64,000 bases of DNA, from positions 62,001 to 126,000 of the forward strand of contig NZ_JASBQE010000027.1 of NCBI RefSeq assembly GCF_029960785.1, written 5' to 3'. Both the position numbers and the translations under genes were made by a program. This document shows, in pieces, positions 26,207-40,112 of this stretch. The stretch's first letter is position 1, and every line of letters starts with the position of its first letter. This DNA is from Polyangium sp. 15x6 (GTDB lineage Bacteria > Myxococcota_A > Polyangia > Polyangiales > Polyangiaceae). The notes beneath the pieces were generated by a model. The model did no database searches. It worked only from the letters and a program-made list of their open reading frames with translations, and had not been told where the DNA came from.

Positions 26207-27607
26207 ATGAACGAGACATTCACCACGACCGAGGATGTGCCGCAGAACGAGCGGCTCGCTCCTGCCCGCCCCCTTCCCTTTCTCTTCGTCGTGCTGCACA
26301 ACGACAACCCGACCCTCGGCGGTGCTCGGTACAGTCTTCTCGGGATCGATGAGATCACGATCGGACGCGGCTCCACGCGCGAGGCGTCACGCGCGGACGA
26401 GGCCGGCTCGCGGCGGCTCGCGCTGCGCCTGCCGTCGTCGACCGTGTCGAGAGCGCACGCGCGCCTCGTTCGCAGCCATGACGAATGGCTCCTCGAGGAT
26501 CTCGATTCGAAAAATGGCTGCTGCGTCAACGGGGAGCGCGTCACCAGGGCGCGCATCCGGGACGGGGATTTCGTCGAGATAGGGTCGGTCGTCCTGCGGT
26601 ATCGTGCTGCCTTGCCCGCGCCGCCAGGCTTTGCCGAGGATTTCGACAGCGCGCTTCGTCCTCCGGAGGCCTCCGGGTTCACGACCCTCGTGCCCGCCAT
26701 CGCCGCAGGCCTCGGCACGCTCGCTCGTATCGCGCGCTTGCCGATTTCGACCCTGCTTCTCGGCGAGACGGGCACCGGCAAGGAGGTGCTCGCGAAGGGA
26801 ATGCATGCGCTCTCGGGCCGCCCAGGACCTCGGGTCGCCGTCAACTGCGGTGGCCTGACCTCGTCCCTCGTGGAGAGCCAGCTTTTTGGTCACGTCAAGG
26901 GCGCGTTCACGGGGGCGCAACGAGACGAGCCGGGCTTCATCCGCAGCGCGGACGGGGGGACGTTGTTCCTCGACGAGATTGGTGATCTGCCATTGCCCGC
27001 GCAAGCCGCCATCCTTCGCGTCCTCCAGGAGCGCGAGGTCGTCCCCGTGGGCGGGACGCGCCCGACGATCGTGGATGTGCGCGTCATCGCGGCCACGCAC
27101 AAGTCCCTCGACGCGCTTTGCCTGCGAGGTGAATTCCGGAGTGATCTTCTGGCGCGCATCGCGGGCTACCAGCACATGCTGCCGCCGCTCCGCGAACGAA
27201 TGGAGGATGTTGGGCTCTTGATCAGCGACCTCTTGCGACAGATGAGCGTCCCGGGCGCGATGGATGCCCGCTTGAGCGTCACGACCGGGCGACGGCTGCT
27301 CTCGCATGCATGGCACCTCAACATCCGGGAGCTGAAGCAGGTCCTCACGCTGGGCGTGGGGCTCGCCGAGCGTGGTGTGGTGGAGCCATTGCACCTCCCC
27401 GAGGGCGTCGTGAAGGCGCCGGAGAAGCTCGGGCCCGAGAGAGAGACACCATCGAGCACGGACGAGCTTCGCGAGCAGCTCATATCCCTGCTGCGAAAGC
27501 ACCGGGGCAACGTGACGGCCGTGTCGCGCACCCTGGGGAAATCGCGGATCCACATCCATCGATGGATGGCGAAGTACGGCATCGATCCCGACGATTATCG
27601 AGGGTGA
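26207..27607 (+). CDS. sigma-54-dependent transcriptional activator with N-terminal FHA domain
   Basis: A 466-residue enhancer-binding protein. The FHA domain (about residues 25-125) has IGRGS, SRAHARL and DLDSKNGCCVNG and binds phosphothreonine. The AAA+ domain (about 150-375) has Walker A GETGTGKE, the sigma-54-contacting loop GAFTGA, Walker B GGTLFLDEIGDL and a weakly conserved R-finger region. A Fis-type helix-turn-helix ends the protein (VSRTLGKSRIHIHRWMAKYG). The ATG at 26207 starts 5 bp after the kinase stop, in one operon. The kinase is the natural candidate to phosphorylate the FHA partner. A -24/-12 promoter lies just downstream, before the amidohydrolase. Confidence 0.94.
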   Translation: MNETFTTTEDVPQNERLAPARPLPFLFVVLHNDNPTLGGARYSLLGIDEITIGRGSTREASRADEAGSRRLALRLPSSTVSRAHARLVRSHDEWLLEDLDSKNGCCVNGERVTRARIRDGDFVEIGSVVLRYRAALPAPPGFAEDFDSALRPPEASGFTTLVPAIAAGLGTLARIARLPISTLLLGETGTGKEVLAKGMHALSGRPGPRVAVNCGGLTSSLVESQLFGHVKGAFTGAQRDEPGFIRSADGGTLFLDEIGDLPLPAQAAILRVLQEREVVPVGGTRPTIVDVRVIAATHKSLDALCLRGEFRSDLLARIAGYQHMLPPLRERMEDVGLLISDLLRQMSVPGAMDARLSVTTGRRLLSHAWHLNIRELKQVLTLGVGLAERGVVEPLHLPEGVVKAPEKLGPERETPSSTDELREQLISLLRKHRGNVTAVSRTLGKSRIHIHRWMAKYGIDPDDYRG

Positions 27608-27640
27608 GCAGGAGCGACGGCTCGGAGGCGGCGGGAGCAC

Positions 27641-27664
27641 GTACACGTACAGGTACAGGTACAC
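27641..27664. repeat. four GTACAC/GTACAG hexamers, possible activator binding site
   Basis: GTACACGTACAGGTACAG then GTACAC form four head-to-tail hexamers, about 80-100 bp before the -24 element. That is the distance range at which sigma-54 activators bind. The repeat is plain to see; its use as an enhancer is inferred. Confidence 0.4.
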
Positions 27665-27742
27665 CTCGCTCCCTCCGCCCATCCCACCGAGAATGCCTGC
27701 ATTCGACCGGTGGGAGCGTCCTGGGATCCGGGGGCTTCGGCG

Positions 27743-27758
27743 TGGCATTGGCGTTGCA
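27743..27758 (+). promoter_or_regulatory. sigma-54 (-24/-12) promoter
   Basis: TGGCATTGGCGTTGCA matches the -24/-12 consensus TGGCAC-N5-TTGCA with the invariant GG and GC exactly 10 bp apart. Transcription would begin near 27769, leaving a leader of about 27 nt with GGAAAGGG before the ATG at 27796. A sigma-54 activator gene lies immediately upstream, which makes the match more credible. Confidence 0.7.
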
Positions 27759-27795
27759 AAAGCCTTCTCGAAACTCCGAACGGAAAGGGCGTCCG

Positions 27796-29589
27796 ATGTC
27801 CGCGAATCTCATCCTCAAAGCTTCGACGATCATCACGATGGATCCGGCCAAGCCGCGCGCCGAGGCCGTCGCCTTCGACACGGCGACCGGTGTGATCACC
27901 GCCGTAGGCTCGTTCGACGAGGTGCAGAAATTGGCCCCCGATGCCAAGGTGCAGGACCTGGGCGCGCTGGTGCTGATGCCGGGCTTCATCGACCCGCATA
28001 GCCATCCGCTGAACGGCGGCATGGTCACCCAGCCCCCGGCATACTGGATCTCGCCCTACATCAAAGACGAGAAGACGGGTACGTACCCGTATTCGACCTT
28101 CGACCAGGTCAAGGCGTTCTGGGCAAAGCTCGATAGCCAGCTCCCCAACGGCCAGGCGGTGGTCTGCAATGGCCTCGATCGGCTGCTCCAGGGCGCGCCG
28201 GAGCTCACCAACAAGGATCTCGATGCGTGCTTCCCCTCCGGCCGCCCTGTGGTGATCCTCGATAACTCCGGGCACGAGGTGTACTTCAACAGCACGGTCA
28301 TCAAGGGCAACCCGACCGTCTTCCCCAATGGGATTCCCGTCGAGGATCCGCCGGGCGCGAGATACGGCCGCTATACGAAAGACGACGTCGCGAAGGACCC
28401 CACCTTGACGGTCGGCGCCTCGAACGGCCGCGCCTACGAGACGGCCGCGGTCCTGAATGCCGTGGGCTACGTGCTCCACGCGACGATCCCGGATCCGCTG
28501 CACTCCGCTGCGCTCTGGTACCAGTTGATGGCCAAGAACGGCATCACGATGACGTCGGAGCACACCTACCAGACGGAAATGCTCCCCTACTACCTCGCGC
28601 TCTCGTCCGTGCCCGACTCGCCGCTGCGCCTGGGGCTGTACCACATGTCGATCGAGGCGGACTGCGGCGAGAAGGTGCCTGTTCCCAACCTGGAGAGCCG
28701 GCTCTGGAAGCAGGGTATCAAGCTCTGGGCCGATGGGTCGCCGTGGGTCGGCAACATCGCCGCCTCGTTCCCGTACCTGGACAACGAGAAGGTGCGGGCC
28801 GCAGGCATTCCGCTCGGCCCCGGCGGGACGGACAACCTCAATTACACGCGCGTCGAGCTCGATCAGATCCTCGACAAGTACACGCCGCTCGGCTGGCAGT
28901 TTGCCTTCCATTGCAATGGCGACATCGCTCTCGATGTGGTGCTCGACGCTTACCAGCGCGCGCTCGCCAATCACGGTCTGCTCGGCACCGACCATCGCTG
29001 GCGCGTGGAGCATTGCGGTGGCTGCCGCGGCGATCAGTTCGCTCGCGCCGCCGACCTCGGCGTGATGGTCTCGCTTCCGCCGTTCCAGTTCATCTACTGG
29101 GGCGACCTGCTCGACGGCACGATGTTCACGCCCGAGATCGGCAGGCAATGGGTGCGGGCCGGGGACGCGATGAAGACCCGCGCGCCGGTGTCCTTCCACA
29201 ACGACGGATGCGTCAGCCCGCCCAAGCCGCTGCTCAACATCCAGTCCATGGTCACGCGCCGCACGCCGTCGGGCACGCTGCACGGGCCCGAGCAGGCGGT
29301 GAGCCTGCACGACGCTCTGATGGCGCACACGATGCACGCCGCGCATCATCTGCGGCGCGACCACGATCTCGGTTCCATCACCGTCGGCAAGCTCGCGGAT
29401 TTCGTCGAGCTCACGAATGATCCCTACGTGGTCGACATCGAGAAGCTGGCGAACGAGGTCGCGGTGAACGGTACCTGGTCGAATGGCAAGAGGGTCGACC
29501 TCGCGGCCTTCCTGGACCAGATCGCCAAGTATCCCGCGATCGAGGCGAAACCTCGAGCCCGTGCGGCGGCCTTCAAGCGTTGCTGCTGA
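27796..29589 (+). CDS. amidohydrolase family protein (YtcJ-like)
   Basis: A 597-residue cytoplasmic metal-dependent hydrolase of the amidohydrolase-3/YtcJ group, which cleaves amide, ester or related bonds. Near the N-terminus GFIDPHSH holds His68 and His70, the first metal ligands. Later ligands are seen in FHCNGD, VEHCGG and FHNDG. The C-terminal DLGSITVGKLADFVELTNDPY is the standard return to the small beta-domain. Substrate cannot be told. A sigma-54 promoter with correct spacing lies 38 bp upstream, and the ATG follows GGAAAGGG. Codon use and GC look slightly different from neighbours by eye, so horizontal acquisition is possible. Confidence 0.9.
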   Translation: MSANLILKASTIITMDPAKPRAEAVAFDTATGVITAVGSFDEVQKLAPDAKVQDLGALVLMPGFIDPHSHPLNGGMVTQPPAYWISPYIKDEKTGTYPYSTFDQVKAFWAKLDSQLPNGQAVVCNGLDRLLQGAPELTNKDLDACFPSGRPVVILDNSGHEVYFNSTVIKGNPTVFPNGIPVEDPPGARYGRYTKDDVAKDPTLTVGASNGRAYETAAVLNAVGYVLHATIPDPLHSAALWYQLMAKNGITMTSEHTYQTEMLPYYLALSSVPDSPLRLGLYHMSIEADCGEKVPVPNLESRLWKQGIKLWADGSPWVGNIAASFPYLDNEKVRAAGIPLGPGGTDNLNYTRVELDQILDKYTPLGWQFAFHCNGDIALDVVLDAYQRALANHGLLGTDHRWRVEHCGGCRGDQFARAADLGVMVSLPPFQFIYWGDLLDGTMFTPEIGRQWVRAGDAMKTRAPVSFHNDGCVSPPKPLLNIQSMVTRRTPSGTLHGPEQAVSLHDALMAHTMHAAHHLRRDHDLGSITVGKLADFVELTNDPYVVDIEKLANEVAVNGTWSNGKRVDLAAFLDQIAKYPAIEAKPRARAAAFKRCC

Positions 29590-29628
29590 TCGTCGCCCTC
29601 GGCGCCGCGCCGACGAAGGGAGCCGCGC

Positions 29629-30219
29629 TCAGTAGGAACAGGTGAGGCGCGGCTCCAGGCGGGCGTAATGGTTCCAGCCCCAGTTGCTATCCCAGGATCC
29701 GTGCGATTCGGCCGCGACCTGGATGTCCCACGCGTTCTGCGCGCCGTACTCGTTGAATGCCCAGTAGAAGAGGTGCTCCTCGGTGGGCGTCATGTCGCCG
29801 CAGACCCATTGCCCGCTCGAATAGGGCGGGAACGTGAGCCCGTCGCAGACCGAATACCCCCCGTAGCCGCCATTGCTGCACCAGACACAGCTCCGCGGGC
29901 CCGAGTCGAGCATCACGTAGGCATCGCCGTTCGTGCCGGCGCTCGCCGGCAGGAACGCGTCATTGCCGTTGAGCTGCACGTAGATGTTGATCTCGTCGTC
30001 CGGGTACATGTCGCGGAGGTATCCGCGGTATGCGATCGTGAGCAAGGCGTGGGCATCATAGAGGTCCACGCTGTTCCGGATGATCTCGAAGGGCCCGGTG
30101 GAAACGGTGTCCACGATGCCACACGTCGGATAGCTGGGCGGATACATCGAGGCGTCGGCCTCACGGGTCGAGACGCCCAGCGCGAGCGGGAGAGCGAGCA
30201 GGAAGAATTGGGCTTTCAT
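29629..30219 (-). CDS. hypothetical secreted protein
   Basis: A 196-residue protein with an N-terminal signal peptide (AQFFLLALPLALGVSTREADA, cleavage near residue 24). The mature part is rich in Tyr, Gly, Trp and Asp and contains six or so cysteines (PTCG, RSCVWC, SVCDG, WVCGD, LTCSY), suggesting a disulfide-stabilised extracellular domain. The C-terminal WDSNWGWNHYARLEPRLTCSY is distinctive. The ATG at 30219 is chosen to expose the signal peptide; no clear Shine-Dalgarno is seen. No family was recognised. Confidence 0.7.
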   Translation of the reverse strand: MKAQFFLLALPLALGVSTREADASMYPPSYPTCGIVDTVSTGPFEIIRNSVDLYDAHALLTIAYRGYLRDMYPDDEINIYVQLNGNDAFLPASAGTNGDAYVMLDSGPRSCVWCSNGGYGGYSVCDGLTFPPYSSGQWVCGDMTPTEEHLFYWAFNEYGAQNAWDIQVAAESHGSWDSNWGWNHYARLEPRLTCSY

Positions 30220-30263
30220 GAGGAGATCCGGCCTATCGAACAACTCGGCCGGCGTCAAGGACG

Positions 30264-31559
30264 TCAGAGCTCCGCGACCCGCCCGCCCATCATCACCTTG
30301 CGGACTCCGTTGATGACGACGTTGATGTCCATCAGAGGGTCGCCCTCGACCGCGATGATGTCGGCGTAGTAGCCCACCGCGACCTTTCCGATCTCGTTTT
30401 GCACGCCGATGCTCTCGGCTCCATGAATGGTGGCGGCGCGGATCGCCTCGAGCGGGGTCATCCCGGCCTGCACGAACCAGGCGAGCTCCCGCGTATTTTG
30501 ACCAAATCCGGTGAACACGGCGTCCGAGCCCATCGCGATCTTCACGCCCATGAGGTGTGCCTGGGCCGCGCTTTCGAGGTTATCGCGAATGTACGCGTCG
30601 AACTTCGCTTCCAGATCGGGGGCGTAGCCGAAGAACGCGAGGTTGTCCTTGTAATACCGGTTGTGATCGATGGTCGGCACGTAGATCGTCCCCTTGTCGA
30701 TCATGATGCCACAGTCCACCGCGTCGAAGCCCTCCGGATGCTCGATCGAGTCCGGGCCGGCCATGATGGCGAGCCTGGCCGTGTCCTCGTGGTACGCGTG
30801 AATCGCGATGGGCAAACCCTCCTGGTGGGACGTGTCGACCAGCAGCTGGAGCTCGTCGAACGTGAACACCGGCGCGCATTCGAGCCTCTGGTCGCTGCAC
30901 CCGTCGGCCCATACTTTCACGAGATCGGCGCCGCGCAACACCTGGAGCTGCACCCAGCCCTTCAATTGATCGGCGGTGAGCGCACCCGGCTGCTTGTGAT
31001 TGGAGATCCCGCCGATGGAGTTGAACATCCGCGGTCCCGGCGTCTTGCCGGACCTGATCTCGGCGCGCAGGGGGTTCAGGATGAAGTCGCTGCCGCCCTT
31101 GTCGATCGCGGTGGTGACACCGGTCCTGAGCGTCGCCAGAGCGGCGCCTCGGGCAAGGTCGAGGAGCTTGTAGGGGTTGTTGTTCATCAGCCAGGGCGCG
31201 CGGGTCCAGGGGAGCGTGCCCGGCTCCTTGTCCGTCTGGTAGGTGAAGTGGACATGGGCATCGACGAGCCCGGGGAGCCCGGTGTACGCCGTCCAATCGA
31301 TGACGCTGGCCCCGCACGGAATCTGCTTTTCATCCGCGCCGACGTAGCTGATCCGATCCTCGTGGATCACGACGATCGCCTTGTCGATGACCGAGCCATC
31401 GTCGGGATTGACGAGCTTGCCCAGCCGAACGGCCTTGTCGTTGCTGGTGCATTCACCGCCGCCCGTGCCGCCGGAGGGGTTCTGCTTTTCCGGGCCGCAA
31501 TGGACCGTCGTGAGGATGACGAAGGCCAACGTCGATCTTCGAAAAACTGTTTTCCACAT
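30264..31559 (-). CDS. exported amidohydrolase (imidazolonepropionase-like)
   Basis: A 431-residue amidohydrolase with an N-terminal signal sequence. A cysteine at residue 21 (TTVHC) could be lipidated, but His at -1 is atypical. Metal ligands are visible as His102 and His104 in GLPGLVDAHVHF, His in IAIHAYHED and His in SIEHPEG, with the terminal Asp in MGSDAVFTG. The C-terminal GKVAVGYYADIIAVEGDPL is characteristic of the imidazolonepropionase/prolidase-like branch. Homologues often hydrolyse dipeptides or small amides. It belongs to a different branch from the amidohydrolase at 27796, so the two are not recent duplicates. ATG 31559 gives the signal peptide. Confidence 0.88.
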   Translation of the reverse strand: MWKTVFRRSTLAFVILTTVHCGPEKQNPSGGTGGGECTSNDKAVRLGKLVNPDDGSVIDKAIVVIHEDRISYVGADEKQIPCGASVIDWTAYTGLPGLVDAHVHFTYQTDKEPGTLPWTRAPWLMNNNPYKLLDLARGAALATLRTGVTTAIDKGGSDFILNPLRAEIRSGKTPGPRMFNSIGGISNHKQPGALTADQLKGWVQLQVLRGADLVKVWADGCSDQRLECAPVFTFDELQLLVDTSHQEGLPIAIHAYHEDTARLAIMAGPDSIEHPEGFDAVDCGIMIDKGTIYVPTIDHNRYYKDNLAFFGYAPDLEAKFDAYIRDNLESAAQAHLMGVKIAMGSDAVFTGFGQNTRELAWFVQAGMTPLEAIRAATIHGAESIGVQNEIGKVAVGYYADIIAVEGDPLMDINVVINGVRKVMMGGRVAEL

Positions 31560-31735
31560 GGGAAAGGTCCTGATTCTGTCGGGGTGCGGCTCCACGGCGA
31601 CCCATGGATGTCCGTGATACCTCCATGAGCCCCGGAGCAGCAAGGACCGTACCGCTCCGGCCAATGGCTTCCGGGCTTCGCTGGACCGGCAGACAAGAGG
31701 GCGCCTAGCTCGAGCTGTCGCGGGCGCGCAACAAC

Positions 31736-32611: not shown

Positions 32612-32628
32612 CGACGAGGAGCGAGGAG

Positions 32629-34836
32629 TTACCCGTCCTTCTCCATCTGCGTTGCAACGAGCGATGCATACCACCCGCCGCGGGCCACGAGCTCTGCGTG
32701 GCGTCCCTGCTCCACCAGGCGGCCCTCGTGCATCACGAGGATGTTGTCCGCGTTCCTGATCGTGCTGAGGCGGTGCGCGATCACGACGCGCGTGCACCGC
32801 AGTTTCGCCAGCTCTTCGTTCAGCGCGGTCTCCGTGATGGCATCCAGGGCGCTCGTGGCCTCGTCGAGGAGCAGAATGGACGGCTTGCGCACGAGGGCCC
32901 TGGCCAGCGCCAGGCGCTGACGCTGGCCGCCGGACAGGGAGCTGCCACCATCCGCGAGGACCGTGTCATAACCCGCCGGCATCGCGTCGATATCGTCGTG
33001 AATATGCGCCTGTCGCGCCGCCTCCATGACCTCGTCCGCGGTCGCATCCGGGTTTCCCAGGGAGATGTTGTCACGGATGGTGGTCCCGAAGAGCGAAACC
33101 TTCTGCGTGACGATACCGAGCTGGCTGCGTACATGACGGATATCGAGGTCCGCGAGGTTGACCCCGTCATAGAGGATCTTGCCAGAGTCCGGGCGGTAAA
33201 GGCCTGCGAGCAGGCACGCCAGGGACGTCTTGCCGGAGCCCGAGCGGCCGACGATGGCGACGAACTGCCCCGATTCGATTCGAAGCGAGACGTCGTCGAC
33301 CACCACCGGGTCGAGCGGGTTGTACCGAAAGCTCACGCGCTCGAGCTCGATGTGCCCGCGCACGCGCTTCAAGGCCTTGCTCCCAGGCGCTTGCTCGGGC
33401 GGCGTCCGCCGGACATCCTCGGCCCGCTCGAGATAACAACCGAGGAGCTCGAGCTTGCTTCCATTCGACGAAAGGCTCGACAGCGGCGCGAAGACGCCCG
33501 CGGCCAGCGCATTGAGCGCGAGCATCACCCCGAGCGAGATCGTTCCGTCGAGCACCTGGATGGCCCCGACCCATAAAACGACGAGCGGGGCGCTCATGCG
33601 GAGCGTGCTGCCGAGCGCCTCCACGGCCGCGTCGAGCTTGCCCTCCGAGAGCGAAGCATTGAGCACGTCGACGAACAGGTTCGACCATTGCTCCAGCGCG
33701 CGCGCTTCCGCTCCCATGGACTTGAGCGTCTCCACGTTGGCGAACAGCTCGACCTGATACCCCTCGGCGCGCGCCTGCCTGGCGAGCATCCGGGCGTCGA
33801 GCTCTCTGCGCTTTTTGCTGGTGAACGCGAGGATGCCTATCTGAGCGATGCCGAACGCCAAGGCGAGCAGCCCGATCTTCCAGCTCACCATGAACAGCAG
33901 GGCGAGATAGCCGACCGCCATCGTCCCATCGAGGAGCGCCGACAGCATGCCGGAGGTCAAGATCTGGCGGATGAGGGTATTGCTGTTCAGCCGCATCAGG
34001 AGATCGCCCGTCGAGCGGCGCTGAAAGAAGGCGTAGGGCAGCGCGATGAGGTGCTCCATGAAGCTCAAGGTCATCCGGGCATCCAGGATCGTGCGCATGT
34101 CGAGGAGGAGGTGCGCACGCACCAGCGAGGCCAGGAGGTGAAAGACCACGATGCCCACGATGCCAATGGCCAGCACGAGGAGCATGTGCAGGTCGCTCCG
34201 CGGCACCACGCGGTCCACGACGGTGCCGGTCAACACGGGCAAAGCGAGCAGCATGGCTTGCAAGAAAAACGAGGTCGTGACGATGCGCCCCCATTCGCCC
34301 GCGTCGCGCAGGAAGGTGTGGTATCCGGACGAAGAGGTTCGCTTGCTCGCGCCCTCGTGCGGAGGGAAATGCTCGGACGGCTCGAGGACCAGGGCGACGC
34401 CGGTGAAGGAGCGGTCGACCTCGGACAGGGGCAACCGGAGCCTGCCCGCGCCCGGATCGATGATGTCGATCCCTTTTTTCGAGGCCCTCTCCAGGACGAC
34501 GAAATGGTCGAATTCCCAGTGGAGGATCGACGCCGTGGGCAGGTGCCCGAGGGCCTTCAATTCGAGTCGCACGCCGCGGCCGCGGAGCCCATGGTAGCGG
34601 GCCGCGCGGAGGATCTCCCGGGCCGTCGTGCCGCCCCTGCCGAGCGCGACGAGGCTGCGCAACTCGTCGTAAGGGACGTTCTTGCCGTGGTACCCGAGCA
34701 CCATGGCGAGGCAGGCAACCCCGCATTCCGTGGACGCGAGCTGCTGGATGAACGGAATGCGCTTCGTCTTCTGGCCCAGGCGCGCGAGCGCCGGGAAACG
34801 GCGGCGCAGATCTCCGGATTGCGCTTCGTTATCCAT
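32629..34836 (-). CDS. peptidase-containing ABC transporter (C39 protease, leader-cleaving exporter)
   Basis: A 735-residue inner-membrane exporter that removes double-glycine leaders and pumps the mature peptide out. The N-terminal C39 peptidase has Cys38 in TECGVACLAMVLGYHG, His111 in EFDHFVVLE and Asp127 in DIIDPG, so the catalytic set is complete. A six-helix membrane domain spans about 165-440 (LLALPVLTGTVVDRVVPRSD and following). The ATPase has GRSGSGKTS, the LSGGQRQR signature and LLLDEATSALD. Start is preceded by GGAGG and overlaps the upstream adaptor stop by 8 bp. Its natural substrates are the two GG-leader peptides encoded 3.5-4 kb away on the other strand. Confidence 0.95.
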   Translation of the reverse strand: MDNEAQSGDLRRRFPALARLGQKTKRIPFIQQLASTECGVACLAMVLGYHGKNVPYDELRSLVALGRGGTTAREILRAARYHGLRGRGVRLELKALGHLPTASILHWEFDHFVVLERASKKGIDIIDPGAGRLRLPLSEVDRSFTGVALVLEPSEHFPPHEGASKRTSSSGYHTFLRDAGEWGRIVTTSFFLQAMLLALPVLTGTVVDRVVPRSDLHMLLVLAIGIVGIVVFHLLASLVRAHLLLDMRTILDARMTLSFMEHLIALPYAFFQRRSTGDLLMRLNSNTLIRQILTSGMLSALLDGTMAVGYLALLFMVSWKIGLLALAFGIAQIGILAFTSKKRRELDARMLARQARAEGYQVELFANVETLKSMGAEARALEQWSNLFVDVLNASLSEGKLDAAVEALGSTLRMSAPLVVLWVGAIQVLDGTISLGVMLALNALAAGVFAPLSSLSSNGSKLELLGCYLERAEDVRRTPPEQAPGSKALKRVRGHIELERVSFRYNPLDPVVVDDVSLRIESGQFVAIVGRSGSGKTSLACLLAGLYRPDSGKILYDGVNLADLDIRHVRSQLGIVTQKVSLFGTTIRDNISLGNPDATADEVMEAARQAHIHDDIDAMPAGYDTVLADGGSSLSGGQRQRLALARALVRKPSILLLDEATSALDAITETALNEELAKLRCTRVVIAHRLSTIRNADNILVMHEGRLVEQGRHAELVARGGWYASLVATQMEKDG

Positions 34837-35773
34837 GTGTCCTCCGGAGCAAAACGCGAAGGCCTGGAATCAACGCTACGATCACGCGCTCCGACCGCAC
34901 GCGCACTTCCCCCACGCCGCTCATTCCGTGATGGAAGTCGAAGCGTTGCCCCTCGATCTCGAACGTCGGGGACGAGGGGACCGACTCGATCAGCACGACG
35001 GGCCCCTTGATCTCGACCGTATCCCCGAGCTCCTGTCCCAGATGACGCTTGACCTCCAGCGGGCCGATGATCTGATTGCCGACCGAGGTGATGGTCGCCT
35101 CGGTGTAAGCGAAGCGATACCCTTTCAGCTCGAAGCGCATGGACATGCCGGGGCGGAGCTGGGGTCTGTACTGGGCAGGCACGATGGCGAGAATCGAAGG
35201 CTCCCTGCTGGGGTCGAGCAGGTGGAGCACGACGTCGCCCGCCGCGACCGCCTGACCCGGGCGAATCCTGACATCACCCACGATGCCAGTACGGGGAGCG
35301 CGAATGAAGAGCTGCTCCAGCCGCGCCTTGGCCAGGTCTTTCTGGGTTCGAAGCGCCGTGAGCGTCTGCCGCGCCTGCGCGTCGGACGGATCGCGCAGGG
35401 TCTTCATGAGCTGGAGATCGAACTCGCGCTGCGCGCGCGAGAGCTCGGCTTCGGCTTGCCACGATTGAAGGCGAATCAAAAGCTCACCCGCCGCGACGTG
35501 CTCCCCCGATCGAATGTCGATGGAATGCACCGTTCCCTGGACGGTCGCCGTGAGGTCGAGTTTGCCGGGGACCCAGACGACGGCAGGGCCGGACGCATAC
35601 TCGGAAATCGTGGCGAGGACGCTGAATGCGACAATGGCGACGAGCGCAGCGAAGAGGATACGGTACGACCACGTCGTCCAGCCGGAAGGCGTGCGGAGAA
35701 TGTCGCCCTCGAGCCGGCCCGCATTTCTCCGGAGAGCCTCGCGTCGGAAGATCCTGGACGCACCTCGATCCAT
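34829..35773 (-). CDS. HlyD-family membrane fusion protein (inner-membrane anchored)
   Basis: A 314-residue periplasmic adaptor. It has a cytoplasmic start, a transmembrane helix near residues 38-58 (FAALVAIVAFSVLATISEY), a lipoyl half-motif (GTVHSIDIRSGEHVAAGELL), a short helical hairpin, the second lipoyl half (RTGIVGDVRIRPGQAVAAGDVVL) and a beta-barrel. It links the inner-membrane ABC exporter to an outer-membrane channel. Stop overlaps the exporter start, so the two are translationally coupled. The outer-membrane TolC partner is not in the window. Confidence 0.88.
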   Translation of the reverse strand: MDRGASRIFRREALRRNAGRLEGDILRTPSGWTTWSYRILFAALVAIVAFSVLATISEYASGPAVVWVPGKLDLTATVQGTVHSIDIRSGEHVAAGELLIRLQSWQAEAELSRAQREFDLQLMKTLRDPSDAQARQTLTALRTQKDLAKARLEQLFIRAPRTGIVGDVRIRPGQAVAAGDVVLHLLDPSREPSILAIVPAQYRPQLRPGMSMRFELKGYRFAYTEATITSVGNQIIGPLEVKRHLGQELGDTVEIKGPVVLIESVPSSPTFEIEGQRFDFHHGMSGVGEVRVRSERVIVALIPGLRVLLRRTHG

Positions 35774-35782
35774 GGTGGGGCC

Positions 35783-36712
35783 TCACGGGTCCGGCCGGAG
35801 AGAGACCTCCGCGCCTCGGCCAGCAAGCACGGCGTTCTGGAGATCTCCTCCCTCGATCATCGCCTCGACGACGACCATTCGTGACGCCGCGTCGATCTCC
35901 GGGGCGATCCTTTCCACCTTTCCATCGAGCACCACCTCGGGGTTCCCGTCGACGGCCGTCCCGATGCGCAGCGCGCGCCCGACGGAGAGGAGCGCGACCT
36001 CGCTCTCCTGCACGGCGAATCGAACGAACAAGGAGCGCGCACCGACGAGCCGCACGACGGGCGTCTCCGTCGTCACGCTGGCGCCTGGATCGACGAAACG
36101 GGCGGCGATGTATCCCTCGAAGGGCGCGGTGATTCGAAGGTCCGTCTTGCTTCTACGGAGCTGCGCGAGCTTCGCGCGCCGCTCGTCGATCTGCGCGGAG
36201 AGGGTCTCGACGTGTGCTCGCCGGATCGCGACCTGATGTCGAGCGGTCGCCACGTCCTCCCCGGTCGTGAGGCCCTCGGCGGAGAGCCCTTCGCGCCGCG
36301 CCAAGCGCTCCTCGGCCTCGGCAAGTTCCTGCTTGGCCTGCTCGCGTGACAACTCCGCGCTCTTCAAGGCGGCCGCCGCCATGCGTACGTCGAAGGCGAC
36401 CGAGGGTGCGTCGAGGACGGCAATCAGGCCCCCCTCGGGTACCCGATCTCCGAGACGAACGGAGACCTCGCCAATCTTGCCATCGAACCTGGGCGCGATA
36501 TCGACGGTATTTCGTGAAAGGATCACCCCGACGAACCGTGGGGAGGGACCTGCCACGCTTTCGCTCCTCGCCCCGGAGCCCGGGCTCGCTGGCGGCGGAG
36601 TATCGACATGCGCCGCGGCTTTCACGCATTCCGGGTCGTGGCACCCGAACAGGAGCAGCGGTAGCAGGGCGAATATCGCGGCTCCCCCGAGCTCCCTCCT
36701 CGCGACGTTCAT
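35783..36712 (-). CDS. second membrane fusion protein, lipoprotein type
   Basis: A 309-residue adaptor of the RND/HlyD class. A type II signal peptide with lipobox LFGC (Cys24) makes it a lipoprotein, unlike the next gene's transmembrane anchor. The usual parts are seen: the lipoyl half FDGKIGEVSVRLGDRVPEGG, a long coiled coil (about 100-185, Ala/Glu/Arg-rich), then APFEGYIAARFVDPGASV and a beta-barrel. It is the promoter-proximal gene of the three-gene export operon (9 bp to the next gene). Two differently anchored adaptors for one exporter are unusual and may form a mixed ring. Confidence 0.86.
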   Translation of the reverse strand: MNVARRELGGAAIFALLPLLLFGCHDPECVKAAAHVDTPPPASPGSGARSESVAGPSPRFVGVILSRNTVDIAPRFDGKIGEVSVRLGDRVPEGGLIAVLDAPSVAFDVRMAAAALKSAELSREQAKQELAEAEERLARREGLSAEGLTTGEDVATARHQVAIRRAHVETLSAQIDERRAKLAQLRRSKTDLRITAPFEGYIAARFVDPGASVTTETPVVRLVGARSLFVRFAVQESEVALLSVGRALRIGTAVDGNPEVVLDGKVERIAPEIDAASRMVVVEAMIEGGDLQNAVLAGRGAEVSLRPDP

Positions 36713-36811
36713 GGCGTCGGAGCATGTAAGGCGGCGCGTGGGCTCCGGCCAGGCGACCTCACGGCTCCCGCTCCGGTCGTAATCGACCTAGGTACGAGCG
36801 AGAGAGGCGTC
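36713..36811. promoter_or_regulatory. divergent promoter region of the RiPP locus
   Basis: The 99-bp gap between the leftward export operon and the rightward maturase/precursor operon must hold both promoters. It contains CCTAGG followed by a GTAC, and GAGAGAGG as the ribosome binding site for the radical SAM gene. No sigma-70 or -24/-12 match is convincing, so exact promoter positions are not given. Confidence 0.5.
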
Positions 36812-38326
36812 ATGAACGCAACGCGAATCGTTCGGCTGAACGTATTGCAGCAATCTCCCCATGACCTGACGGAGGCCGAGCCGGAAGAGCTGTCGAATGC
36901 GTCGAGGATCGAGTCCTGGGTGCCCTCGCGCTTCAACGTGCACGCGACGACCGACGATGGGCGGCTGATCCTGTGGAACACGCTGAGCACGGCGATCAGC
37001 GTCTTCAAGCCCGCGCAAGTCCCGCAGGTGCTCACGTTGCTCAAGGCTCCGGGGTTCGCGTCGCGCCGGGAGGGGCTCGCGGGGTACCTCGTGGAGCGCG
37101 GATTTCTGGTCCGGAAGGGAATGGACGAATACCGCAAGTTCCTCCTCGCCTTCGGCCAGCAGCATTACCGGACCGACAGGCTCGAGCTCTTCGTGCTCTC
37201 ATCGGAAGACTGCAACTTCCGGTGTACGTATTGCTACGAGGATTTCGCGCGCGGCACGATGCGCCCGGGGGTGCGCGCCGGGATCAAGCGGCTCGTCGAG
37301 AGGCGAATCGAGGAGCTTTTGACGCTGGACATCCGGTGGTTCGGCGGTGAACCGCTGTATGGCTGGGAGGCCGTCGAGGACCTCGGGCCGTTTTTCTCCG
37401 AGATCGCGGAGAAGCACGGGGTCGCATACCGCAGCCACATGACGACGAACGCCTATTTGCTCACGCCCGAGATCGCGGAGAAGCTGCTCGCCTGGCGGGT
37501 GAACGCGTTTCAAATCACGCTCGACGGCATCGCCGCGACCCACGATTGCAGCCGGCCGACGCGGGACGGGCAAGGGAGCTTCGCGACGATCTTCCAGAAC
37601 CTCGAAGCGCTCTCGCAGCGGCGTGACGAGTTTTCCGTCACGCTGCGAGTCAACTTCGACAAGAACAACCATCCCTACCTCGAGGAGCTGTTCGAGCTCG
37701 TGGAGAAGACGTTCCACGGGGATCCTCGTTTCACCCTCGATTTTCATCCCGTGGGGCGCTGGGGGGGTCCGAACGATCCCGAGCTCGAGGTGTGCGGCGA
37801 CGACGAGCGCGACGCGGTGCAACGCGCGCTGAAGGCGCTCGCGCATCGACATGGCCTGAAGTTCTCCACCTTGAAGGACGTGAACTTCCTCGGCGGGCAG
37901 GTTTGTTATGCCGCGCGACCGTTCAACTTGATCATCGGCGCGAGCGGCAAGGTCATGAAATGCACGGTCGTGCTCGACAAGGACGAGAACAACGTCGTGG
38001 GGCGCCTCCACGAGGATGGTCGGCTGGAGCTCGACGACGATCGGATGGCGTTGTGGACCGAGCCCGCATTTCAGCGCGACTCGCAATGCCAGAAGTGCGC
38101 GGTACTGCCGAGCTGCCAGGGCATCTCATGCCCCTTGCCGCGCATCACGGACGGCGTGCGCCCGTGTGTCCCCACGCGGACCCATTCGAAGAGCGAGCTC
38201 TTCGAGCTGCTCGAATACCCGACGCGTAAGGCGCGCATTCGAGGGGTCGCGGAGAGGACGGAGACGGCGGCGCACGACAAAGAGCACATCGAGCCTTCCG
38301 ACGATGGGCGTCCGGCGGCTCGATGA
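36812..38326 (+). CDS. radical SAM/SPASM peptide maturase
   Basis: A 504-residue enzyme expected to modify the co-encoded peptides. The N-terminal ~120 residues resemble a peptide-recognition region. The radical SAM core carries CNFRCTYC (Cys134, 138, 141), which binds the SAM-cleaving 4Fe-4S cluster, followed by RWFGGEPL. A SPASM domain binds auxiliary clusters: a CYAARPF...GKVMKC pair, then CQKCAVLPSCQGISC starting at residue 426 (Cx2Cx5Cx4C; the usual last spacing is x3), and a later RPCVP. Such enzymes form thioether or C-C cross-links in RiPPs. ATG 36812 follows GAGAGAGG. It begins an operon with both precursors. Confidence 0.93.
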   Translation: MNATRIVRLNVLQQSPHDLTEAEPEELSNASRIESWVPSRFNVHATTDDGRLILWNTLSTAISVFKPAQVPQVLTLLKAPGFASRREGLAGYLVERGFLVRKGMDEYRKFLLAFGQQHYRTDRLELFVLSSEDCNFRCTYCYEDFARGTMRPGVRAGIKRLVERRIEELLTLDIRWFGGEPLYGWEAVEDLGPFFSEIAEKHGVAYRSHMTTNAYLLTPEIAEKLLAWRVNAFQITLDGIAATHDCSRPTRDGQGSFATIFQNLEALSQRRDEFSVTLRVNFDKNNHPYLEELFELVEKTFHGDPRFTLDFHPVGRWGGPNDPELEVCGDDERDAVQRALKALAHRHGLKFSTLKDVNFLGGQVCYAARPFNLIIGASGKVMKCTVVLDKDENNVVGRLHEDGRLELDDDRMALWTEPAFQRDSQCQKCAVLPSCQGISCPLPRITDGVRPCVPTRTHSKSELFELLEYPTRKARIRGVAERTETAAHDKEHIEPSDDGRPAAR

Positions 38327-38359
38327 GCCCGCATCGCGGGTCTGCAGAGGAGGAAGCAC

Positions 38360-38572
38360 ATGTCCGACAAAGTGAAGAGCGCAAACGAGAACGTATCGAC
38401 GGAGGACGCGGTAAAGCTCGAGATCACCGAGCTCGACGATCTCGATCTCGCTGCCGTGACGGGCGGCAGCGAGGACGGCGAGAACGTCGGGGAGGCGGAG
38501 CTCCCGGCGACCAGCAATCGAGGTTGTGGCGCCAATCGTCGCTCCTGCACGATCGTCGTGAGGCGGCGATAG
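38360..38572 (+). CDS. RiPP precursor peptide 1 (double-glycine leader)
   Basis: A 70-residue peptide. Residues 1-36 form a leader ending LDDLDLAAVTGG, the double-glycine type cut by C39 exporters. The predicted 34-residue core is Gly/Asn/Arg-rich with just two cysteines, Cys56 and Cys63 (C-x6-C, in RGCGANRRSC), and a basic tail TIVVRRR. The leader is identical to that of precursor 2 at 23 of 36 positions, while the cores differ. GAGGAGG lies 6 nt before the ATG. It starts 33 bp after the maturase gene. Likely product is a Cys-cross-linked peptide of unknown activity; the class is inferred from context. Confidence 0.88.
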   Translation: MSDKVKSANENVSTEDAVKLEITELDDLDLAAVTGGSEDGENVGEAELPATSNRGCGANRRSCTIVVRRR

Positions 38573-38609
38573 TAACCGCCGACAGCGGATTGCGCATGGG
38601 CAGGTGATG

Positions 38610-38633
38610 GGGAGGGAGGGAGGGAGGGAGGGA
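38610..38633 (+). repeat. (GGGA)6 tract forming the ribosome binding site of precursor 2
   Basis: Six GGGA units run from 38610 to 38633, ending 2 nt before the ATG at 38636. Every step contains GGAGG, so several overlapping Shine-Dalgarno positions exist. At least four G3 runs with single-base loops also make it a strong parallel G-quadruplex candidate in the mRNA. The repeat is certain; its effect on expression is inferred. Confidence 0.85.
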
Positions 38634-38635
38634 GT

Positions 38636-38821
38636 ATGTCCGAGGGAAAGAAGAGCCCGAGCGAGAAGGTGTCGACGGAGGAAGCAATCGAGTTCGAGAT
38701 TGCAGAGCTCGACGATCTCGATCTCGCCGGGGTGTCCGGCGGCGCCCGCAAAGAGGACAAGGGCGACATTACCAATGGCTTCGCCTGCCCAACCAATAAC
38801 TGCGGTTCCAAAAGGGGCTAA
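38636..38821 (+). CDS. RiPP precursor peptide 2 (double-glycine leader)
   Basis: A 61-residue peptide with a 36-residue leader ending LDDLDLAGVSGG, closely matching precursor 1 (STE-A, E-ELDDLDLA-V-GG conserved). The predicted core is 25 residues: a Lys/Asp-rich start, then GFACPTNNCGSKRG with Cys51 and Cys56 (C-x4-C). Compared with precursor 1 the cysteine spacing is shorter and the tail less hydrophobic. Translation starts just after the (GGGA)6 tract. Same operon, 63 bp after precursor 1. The shared leader implies one maturase and one exporter for both. Confidence 0.88.
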   Translation: MSEGKKSPSEKVSTEEAIEFEIAELDDLDLAGVSGGARKEDKGDITNGFACPTNNCGSKRG

Positions 38822-38902
38822 CGCATAGTCCGGGAGCGGTTGCGCGTGGTGCCACGCCAGCCGCTTCTTTCATTTCACCCGTTGCCGAAGGAGCTCTCCA
38901 GC

Positions 38903-40054
38903 ATGGATCCCCGCGACGCATGGCTCCCCCCCGATACGATCGCCGAACAGGGGAGAGTACGGCGCCCGCCGCTCCGTGCGTGGGCGTCCGATTTGATCGA
39001 CAGGATGAATGCCCTGGAGCCGGACGACGCGGGCTTTTTGCGCATCGAGGAGTGCTGCAACAACACCGGGCTCATCGAGGTCTACCGGGGTCGGCCGGGC
39101 GCGGCGGCAGAGGTCTGCGCGCGGCAACTGGAATGGGCCGCGCGCCTGGTCGGGCGGCACGGCGTCATGGGCGCAGGGGAGCACCTGATCCAGCCCTGGA
39201 TCAACCTCGGCAGGCTGCGCCGCATCGCGGGCGATCACGAGGCCGCGCTCGCCCATTTCGCGCTCGTGGTCGAGACCCTCTCGGCCAAGCCCGTACGGCT
39301 GGGCGACCTGGAGATCGACGCCGCATCGTGGCGAGCGCTGGTGCAGCATCGATCGCTCTACGATCTGCTCAAAAACGTGTACGTCGTCGACTCGGTCAAG
39401 ACGTACTTCGTCGCCCGGGACCTCACCGGCGCCCTCGATTGCTTGCGCCGGGCGCGCTCGCTCTGCGGCGAGGAGCCATTCCCCCTGCTGAAAGAGATGG
39501 AGCTCCTCACGCTCGCCAGGCTCACGCGATTCGAGGAAGCAGCGGCTCTGCTCCAAAGCAATGCCTGGAACAACAGCGGATTCCACAAGCTCCTGCGGGT
39601 CACCTACCGCGTGGGTCTGCATGCAGCGTCGGGTGAGCTGCCCCGGTGCAAGCGCCTCATGGAGGATCTCGCAGCCCGCGTGCTCTCCATGCGCGGCCTC
39701 TCCGAGCCCGACGATCCATGCGTGCTGCGATATCTCCACTACCTCGGCGGCCTCGCCTCGCGACTCGGTCTCGACGAACGCGCAGCGCAGATCTTCCGCC
39801 TGGGCCTCGGAGCCGCCGAGCACGTGGACGACGTCCCGTGCCGCGTCGCCTTCCTCGACGCGCTCATCGACGCTGGCGTCGAGGACCGCAGGGCGCTCGA
39901 GGCCGCGCGCGCCGCGCTCCTCGACGATTGCCTCTACGTCCCGTTGCTAAAGGCGCGGGGCATGACGGCCGACCCCGCGGCCCTCTCCGATCCGGTCTTC
40001 GACGAGCTCCATGCGAAGCTCGAACGCGCCATGGTGGATCGAGAGGCCGTGTAG
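38903..40054 (+). CDS. TPR-like helical protein of the RiPP locus, function unknown
   Basis: A 383-residue protein without signal peptide or membrane helix. It is almost entirely alpha-helical with TPR-like pairs (AGEHLIQPWINLGRLRRIAGDHEAALAHFALVVETL and LTGALDCLRRARSLCGEEPFPLLKEMELLTLARLTRFEEAAALL), spaced along the whole length. It contains several cysteines, including ECCNN near the N-terminus. ATG 38903 follows AAGGAG. It starts 81 bp after precursor 2 on the same strand. It could be a scaffold, an immunity or a leader-binding factor, but no sequence feature decides between these. Confidence 0.8.
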   Translation: MDPRDAWLPPDTIAEQGRVRRPPLRAWASDLIDRMNALEPDDAGFLRIEECCNNTGLIEVYRGRPGAAAEVCARQLEWAARLVGRHGVMGAGEHLIQPWINLGRLRRIAGDHEAALAHFALVVETLSAKPVRLGDLEIDAASWRALVQHRSLYDLLKNVYVVDSVKTYFVARDLTGALDCLRRARSLCGEEPFPLLKEMELLTLARLTRFEEAAALLQSNAWNNSGFHKLLRVTYRVGLHAASGELPRCKRLMEDLAARVLSMRGLSEPDDPCVLRYLHYLGGLASRLGLDERAAQIFRLGLGAAEHVDDVPCRVAFLDALIDAGVEDRRALEAARAALLDDCLYVPLLKARGMTADPAALSDPVFDELHAKLERAMVDREAV

Positions 40055-40112
40055 CTCGGAACGTCGCCAGGACGCCCCCCCGCTTCGGCATCCCTTCCGC
40101 GCTCAGCTCCCT

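Follow-up and report, generated by a model that had tools for sequence, protein, structure and literature searches.

The window analysed here, a 64-kb stretch of the 13.4-Mb genome of Polyangium sp. 15x6, contains a compact 7.4-kb unit of seven genes (32629-40054; all positions are coordinates in the window), which encode a radical S-adenosylmethionine (SAM)/SPASM maturase, two short precursor peptides, an ATP-binding cassette (ABC) exporter with two adaptors and a tetratricopeptide repeat (TPR)-like protein. Judged from sequence, the unit is a genuine, conserved biosynthetic locus for ribosomally synthesized and post-translationally modified peptides (RiPPs). We put at roughly 0.6 the probability that it makes two Cys-Asn cross-linked, ranthipeptide-like RiPPs that are leader-bound, C39-exported, TPR-assisted and subject to core swapping. 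All frames are open at the following coordinates:

32629-34836, minus strand: C39-peptidase ABC exporter, 735 amino acids (Pfam C39/ABC_membrane/ABC_tran)
34829-35773, minus strand: HlyD-like membrane fusion protein (HlyD_3, 4.8 × 10−15), with an 8-bp overlap with the exporter start
35783-36712, minus strand: periplasmic adaptor of the resistance-nodulation-division (RND) type (TIGR01730), with a lipoprotein-like N-terminus (lipobox by inspection)
36713-36811: divergent intergenic region, 99 bp, presumed from the gene geometry to be a two-way promoter
36812-38326, plus strand: radical SAM/SPASM maturase, 504 amino acids, N-terminal domain alignable to that of CteB
38360-38467, plus strand: precursor A leader, 36 codons up to GG
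38468-38572, plus strand: precursor A core SEDGENVGEAELPATSNRGCGANRRSCTIVVRRR and stop codon
38636-38743, plus strand: precursor B leader, 36 codons up to GG
38744-38821, plus strand: precursor B core ARKEDKGDITNGFACPTNNCGSKRG and stop codon
38832-38868, plus strand: GC-rich hairpin followed by UUUC, terminator-like (by eye)
38903-40054, plus strand: TPR-like helical protein, 383 amino acids, a recurrent neighbour of related maturases

Other Polyangium species are the nearest named relatives at the locus. All seven genes occur together in Polyangium sp. y55x31, Polyangium sp. 6x1 and P. fumosum DSM 14668, and the five large proteins are 81-94% identical across these three genomes (exporter, 89-94%; HlyD-like protein, 91-93%; RND-type adaptor, 86-91%). 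In the genus set, four of six genomes carry an orthologous maturase (91-100% identity) together with both precursors, so that a short precursor with a conserved leader, the hallmark of a RiPP locus, is kept beside the maturase; because the precursor orthologues in these four genomes retain the same gene order and similar leaders, the precursors are more than chance open reading frames (ORFs). No precursor match was found in the genus genomes G339 and G292, the latter having only a maturase relative with 28% identity. Two of the genomes, y55x31 and 6x1, have the unit at the site that it occupies in the window, and y55x31 has an additional stretch of about 10 kb past it. The P. fumosum copy is on another contig, where homology spans window positions 32636-40050, a few bases short of the outer stop codons; the limits that the preliminary description gave to the unit thus coincide with a block present at two sites. 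Both P. fumosum and G339 have other genes between the same flanks at the old site (named by eye as SDR and AraC-type, and RCC1-like in P. fumosum). The site of the locus (32615-40070) is variable in the genus, and its flanks are rearranged in G292.

More broadly, 3 of 377 Myxococcota genomes, with up to four candidates scored in each, have a maturase match beyond 1 × 10−40, one of them at just 30% identity, and the whole unit was not seen outside Polyangium among the matches listed for loci up to L050 (L-numbers denote the sampled maturase loci). Eight maturases at 47-57% identity (L014-L021) are all accompanied by one or more small peptides with Cys, within other gene neighbourhoods (seven of the eight looked at). 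A lack of homologous precursors beside homologous maturases, which the preliminary description had held to be fatal to its proposal, was searched for, and the search returned the unit in three Polyangium genomes and the peptides at L014-L021; the proposal was thus not refuted and is supported.

The exporter comprises the Pfam domains Peptidase_C39 (1.3 × 10−33), ABC_membrane and ABC_tran; the motifs ECG, WEFDH and IIDPG begin at residues 37, 107 and 125, with GRSGSGKT and LSGGQRQR also intact (by inspection, these motifs were assigned as the catalytic Cys/His/Asp and as nucleotide-binding, respectively). The complete C39-peptidase exporter claimed earlier is present, its motifs unbroken and GG-leader genes close by, as are the two membrane fusion proteins (34829-35773 and 35783-36712), the second of which passes TIGR01730 (118.4 bits, cut-off 94.9). 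The best NCBIfam match of the exporter, TIGR03796 (NHLP exporter), reaches 628.5 bits, below the cut-off of 853.3; NHLP exporters share the C39-ABC architecture, but neither precursor matches the nif11 or nitrile-hydratase-like leader models of NCBIfam and Pfam. As the preliminary description had noted, lanthipeptide, LanB or YcaO enzymes were not seen: LanB, LanC and YcaO domains are not listed by Pfam for the seven locus proteins and nine neighbours. The exporter and the adaptors would cleave after GG and secrete both peptides. It is conceivable, given that exporter and maturase are divergently transcribed and that 8 of the 37 other listed loci (L014-L050) match the exporter at 1 × 10−3 within their flanks, that the two serve separate substrates and are grouped incidentally; this appears highly improbable, however, as the window and three genomes with an orthologous maturase have the whole unit, which forms a single block at the other site in P. 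fumosum and has GG leaders that suit a C39 exporter.

The maturase has a CX3CX2C motif at residues 134/138/141, a Pfam Radical_SAM match (7.6 × 10−17) and seven more Cys (365, 384, 426, 429, 435, 440 and 452); each of the 10 cluster Cys is conserved in 23-25 of the 25 homologues aligned, in agreement with the earlier assignment as a radical SAM plus SPASM enzyme. The 25 best NCBIfam matches all fall under their cut-offs. Among the five best, far below cut-off, are TIGR04463 (193 bits, cut-off 525), the geopeptide maturase TIGR04280 (135.6 bits, cut-off 400), the CefB model (135.1 bits, cut-off 600) and the Clo7bot maturase TIGR04334 (129.3 bits, cut-off 600), the FlmE/OhkG model (135.5 bits) completing the five; the PapB family, NF047865, scores 94.3 bits (cut-off 340). 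The maturase belongs to a clade without a curated model. For the AlphaFold2 model (mean predicted local distance difference test score, pLDDT, 79.8), the best fold match is CteB (Z = 24.2, root-mean-square deviation 4.8, 388 aligned residues, model residues 39-468), with the N-terminal domain included; CteB (5wgg) is also the best sequence match in PDB; identity to CteB is 16%. Fold ranks 2-9 lie within about 2.4 Z of CteB, so what is matched is this group of SPASM enzymes and not CteB alone; SkfB has Z = 19.6. The N-terminal domain of CteB is a leader-binding RiPP recognition element (RRE), and the window maturase would bind the conserved acidic leaders, probably via its own RRE-like domain.

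When sequences upstream of Cys were compared across the maturase family, a specific spacing of Asn was observed. The first set consisted of short ORFs located close to the maturase in 83 loci (80 plus L004, L009 and L010), filtered by ribosome site, acidity, arginine, position and Cys position, with Asn ignored; the window and the duplicates of L011-L013 (together L001-L003 and L005-L008) were excluded, the two window peptides were re-added by hand, and the slot-A (precursor A position) peptide of y55x31 was missed, its frame opening over 200 bases ahead of the end of the maturase gene. The 57 candidates in 46 loci yielded 45 non-redundant cores with 93 Cys. Asn was found at position −3 relative to Cys in 32 of 93 cases (null 8.1 ± 2.6) and at −4 in 21 of 93 (null 7.8 ± 2.6), with 0 of 2000 shuffles as high in either case; at one position or the other, Asn accompanies 51 of the 93 Cys. 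In the ranking of residues and offsets from −6 to +6, Asn at −3 came first, Asn at −4 second and Gly at −1 third (27 vs. 13.1 expected, z = 4.4). In a second set of 20 candidates (19 non-redundant) with at least four Cys each, left out by the first filters and containing 102 Cys, Asn was at −4 in 35 (z = 7.4) and at −3 in 34 (z = 7.3), with 0 of 500 shuffles as high for each; Asn at +2 (z = 5.0) and +5 (z = 3.0) was raised too, as expected from repeats. Evident non-precursor ORFs were kept in both sets (e.g. L026, L058 and L084 in the first; L017, L031, L047, the first of L056, L059 and L087 in the second). When analysed by clade, 35 of 41 maturase clades exceed their own null for Asn-Cys (p = 2.4 × 10−6); the clades were drawn by hand from the maturase tree, L023 being grouped with L028 and L029 despite their separation in the tree and the held-out L052 omitted as a near-copy of L043.

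In the window, three of the four Cys fit, namely Cys56 (Asn at −3) and Cys63 (Asn at −4) of precursor A and Cys51 (Asn at −4) of precursor B, and each of the eight Polyangium cores contains one or more Cys that fit. A single codon separates the two registers in core A: the window has ANRRSC and y55x31 has ANRSC, which shifts Asn from −4 to −3. Among plasmid-borne relatives (8 of 21 records inspected, precursors picked by eye), 6 of 10 Cys, in five of the eight, have Asn at −3 or −4; no precursor was recognized by eye in the plasmid relative L122. The preliminary description assigned two Cys to each peptide, which is correct for this strain, whereas there are two or four in each of the six sister cores.

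In the thioether made by CteB, the Thr acceptor lies after the Cys. The shorter of the two spacings has a counterpart of like direction in NxxcA, the ranthipeptide of Streptococcus orisratti, in which a C-beta thioether joins Cys23 to Asn20 (PMC8326336, PMC11002830). On the same published description, the NxxcA/NxxcB system resembles the window locus in combining a radical SAM plus SPASM enzyme with an Asn three residues before the donor Cys; Asn is at −3, as in NxxcA, for one of the four window Cys and at −4 for two, both spacings being enriched family-wide. Unlike NxxcA, the window family combines −3 and −4 spacings, GG leaders, a C39 exporter with two adaptors, a TPR-like partner and variable cores. 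CteB itself, the thermocellin SCIFF maturase (PDB 5wgg/5why), is described in PMC11002830 as forming a Cys-to-Thr linkage, and PapB, the freyrasin maturase, in PMC9413430 as using Asp/Glu acceptors; PapB is likewise a radical SAM/SPASM thioether maturase, but its acceptor is not an upstream Asn. Given the direction and spacing in NxxcA and the CteB-like fold, Asn-Cys thioethers are favoured, without a choice of carbon. The maturase would link core Cys thiols to Asn three or four residues upstream, producing small rings with ranthipeptide-like, NxxcA-like Cys-Asn thioethers; the predicted acceptors in the window are Asn53 and Asn59 of precursor A and Asn47 of precursor B. The product is probably a radical SAM RiPP of a known, ranthipeptide-like kind, and the Asn-x(2,3)-Cys rule allows its class to be narrowed, the modification being predicted from sequence; the novel elements are the two-register spacing rule, the core cassettes and the TPR-like partner. 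No paper on such a rule for this maturase family was found, and neither was anything on TIGR04463 or on FlmE with radical SAM, in a literature search with slight coverage of subscription journals.

Several observations weigh against Cys-Asn cross-linking by a single rule. Cys56 of precursor B has no Asn at −3 or −4, and of the 22 Cys in Polyangium cores only 12 fit; the exceptions include all three in DCGCRGGSC. The first set, but not the second, shows an excess of Asn at −2 as well (16 of 93, z = 3.3, against z = −0.9). The GADAC repeats of CefA, encoded next to a TIGR04463-annotated maturase on a plasmid of Methylomagnum, have no such Asn; Clo7bot peptides fit in part only; and the IDFGC peptides carry Asp, not Asn, at −3. 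The peptides and the motif had been seen before the filters were written, so neither set is fully independent; the Asn counts cover loci of this maturase family alone; and the window maturase is likened to NxxcB from its published description. Two alternatives were considered. The maturase might form alpha-carbon thioethers, as in sactipeptides, or another cross-link with acceptors other than Asn, as the presence of SkfB among the related SPASM folds and the lack of Asn at −3/−4 for Cys56 of precursor B would allow; the strong, position-specific enrichment of Asn at −3 and −4 and, weakly, the rank of CteB above SkfB in the fold comparison make this unlikely. The rule could, alternatively, reflect turns or metal binding instead of a bond: the motif alone shows no bond, and turns would give the enrichment of Gly at −1. 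A non-cross-linking chemistry (epimerization, oxidation or similar), with Asn-x(2,3)-Cys as a metal site, disulfide loop or turn, seems less probable still, since the retention of the auxiliary-cluster Cys and the CteB-like fold fit cross-linking enzymes, albeit not decisively.

The preliminary description correctly recognized two short genes with GG leaders; the leaders it called near-identical are better described as similar (23 of 36 residues, 78% of nucleotides). In DNA, leaders are 73-90% identical within slot A, 80-92% within slot B and 66-92% overall. The cores behave differently. Between window core B and its slot B counterparts in 6x1 and P. fumosum, identity is 49%, the level of the codon-shuffled null (49 and 50%). 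In y55x31, the slot B leader is 92% identical to window leader B, whereas the slot B core is 91% identical to core A of 6x1 (null maximum 67%) and 87% identical to core A of P. fumosum, the A leaders of which are 75% and 71% identical, respectively, to the y55x31 slot B leader. Thus, the same core type occupies slot B in y55x31 and slot A in 6x1 and P. fumosum. BLAST homology between the window and y55x31 stops at 38743, the final base of leader B, and homology to 6x1 and P. fumosum carries on for six or seven bases of core A, to 38474 and 38473; past the core breaks, it restarts at 38831 and 38625. Cores change at the leader/core border while leaders stay. Together with the conserved downstream sequence, these breakpoints are suggestive of core-cassette replacement, whereby cores would diversify by recombination between the conserved leader and downstream stretches. 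Membership in known NCBIfam precursor families was considered and rejected, every match being below cut-off (precursor B vs. TIGR04497, 24.1 bits, cut-off 32; y55x31 slot B peptide vs. TIGR04149, 15.4 bits, cut-off 25; precursor A has no match to either model).

The TPR-like protein has no NCBIfam match and no Pfam model over threshold (TPR_12, 23 bits vs. gathering score 30.1), and a relative in L022 passes TPR_2 (31.3 vs. 27). Its model is almost wholly helical (mean pLDDT 75.5), with Foldseek matches to LGN and Rap at template modelling (TM) scores of 0.44-0.46; a Rap-kind peptide receptor is not claimed, the likeness being weak (6t3h, TM 0.44, beside LGN, 0.45). At 1 × 10−5, a profile of the protein finds relatives in 11 of the 80 maturase loci, three in Polyangium and eight elsewhere, beside maturases in Actinomycetota, Cyanobacteriota and Pseudomonadota (row L068, 27 bits, was dropped, its frame overlapping the maturase gene); in the Myxococcota background, 3 of 356 genomes match at this threshold, with four candidates scored per genome, namely the locus itself and two matches of about 27 bits. 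Four of the eight non-Polyangium relatives were outside the profile (L060 Hydrococcus, L024 Janibacter, L089 Solimicrobium and L086 Sideroxydans), and a Polyangium-only profile at 1 × 10−2 recovers seven of the eight, missing L024. All relatives lie 3′ of the maturase on the same strand (L086 about 3 kb off). The motif P-W-I-N-(L/I/V)-G-R-L-R is common to the Polyangium protein and those of Planomonospora, Actinomadura and Nocardiopsis, and was not found by regular expression in L060, L024, L089 and L086. No match was found on the plasmids. On the maturase tree, the TPR label requires eight changes, at least seven of them forced by supported branches, so gain or loss of the partnership has been frequent; because some loci are cut off close to the maturase, an apparent absence is not always real. 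The protein might assist modification, perhaps by holding the leader or peptide.

As a tentative generalization, this widespread maturase family, in at least eight phyla and without a curated model, may make Cys-to-Asn (i−3 or i−4) thioether rings by one sequence rule, often with TPR aid; in Polyangium, its products would evolve as whole cores move from slot to slot at the processing site, the leader and the machinery remaining constant. If true, the spacing rule would allow cross-link positions to be predicted for a large number of orphan radical SAM peptides, and it points to the residues worth testing. The loci resemble a natural leader/core cassette system in which one enzyme apparently accepts unrelated cores, which would be useful to peptide engineers, and the conserved TPR-like partner provides a new route into the study of how leaders are recognized or peptides sensed.

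Several sampled loci have distinctive peptides. Two precursors of Planomonospora (L037:9394-9926) have Asn at −4 for six of six Cys (NQTSC, NDSNC and NLSQC; NASTC, NGSGC and NISRC), and a TPR-family protein adjoins. In the sister maturase clade L016-L021 (Rhodanobacteraceae, Sphingomonadales, Erythrobacter and Myxococcus vastator), tiny peptides contain ...LELA(G/N/D)RCNGRC(D/N)..., with CNGRC in all eight listed (e.g. L019:12758-12895 and L020:8619-8762); nearby are proteins of 429-439 amino acids without a convincing Pfam match and, at some loci, arginase-family or JmjC/cupin genes. Actinobacterial 24-residue peptides ending in ...IDFGC, with a C-terminal Cys, lie just 5′ of the maturase (L023:9669, L028:9786 and L029:9798), and L028 and L029 also have a TPR-family relative. 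The distant 28% maturase relatives of G292 and G368 (L009 and L010), on a very long tree branch, are accompanied by a same-strand peptide with SINFGC. CefA (L121:864-2903), from the Methylomagnum plasmid, has 679 amino acids and a long Cys-rich repeat tail.

For the TPR-like gene, ATG 38903 was preferred as the start, with AAGGAG nine bases upstream and D(P/A)RDAWLPPD, conserved in four species, following it, over a TTG at 38840 that lies inside the hairpin. The hairpin is unexceptional for its base composition (z = −1.24) and is absent from the terminator scan output; by eye, a GC-rich hairpin lies 3′ of slot B in all four Polyangium species, and a similar one also lies 3′ of slot A in P. fumosum, with an altered form there in 6x1. 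No sigma-70-like promoter match was found in 36713-36811. Upstream of the unit, at 27310-31664, the Pfam scan of the neighbours identified two amidohydrolase-family genes on opposite strands.

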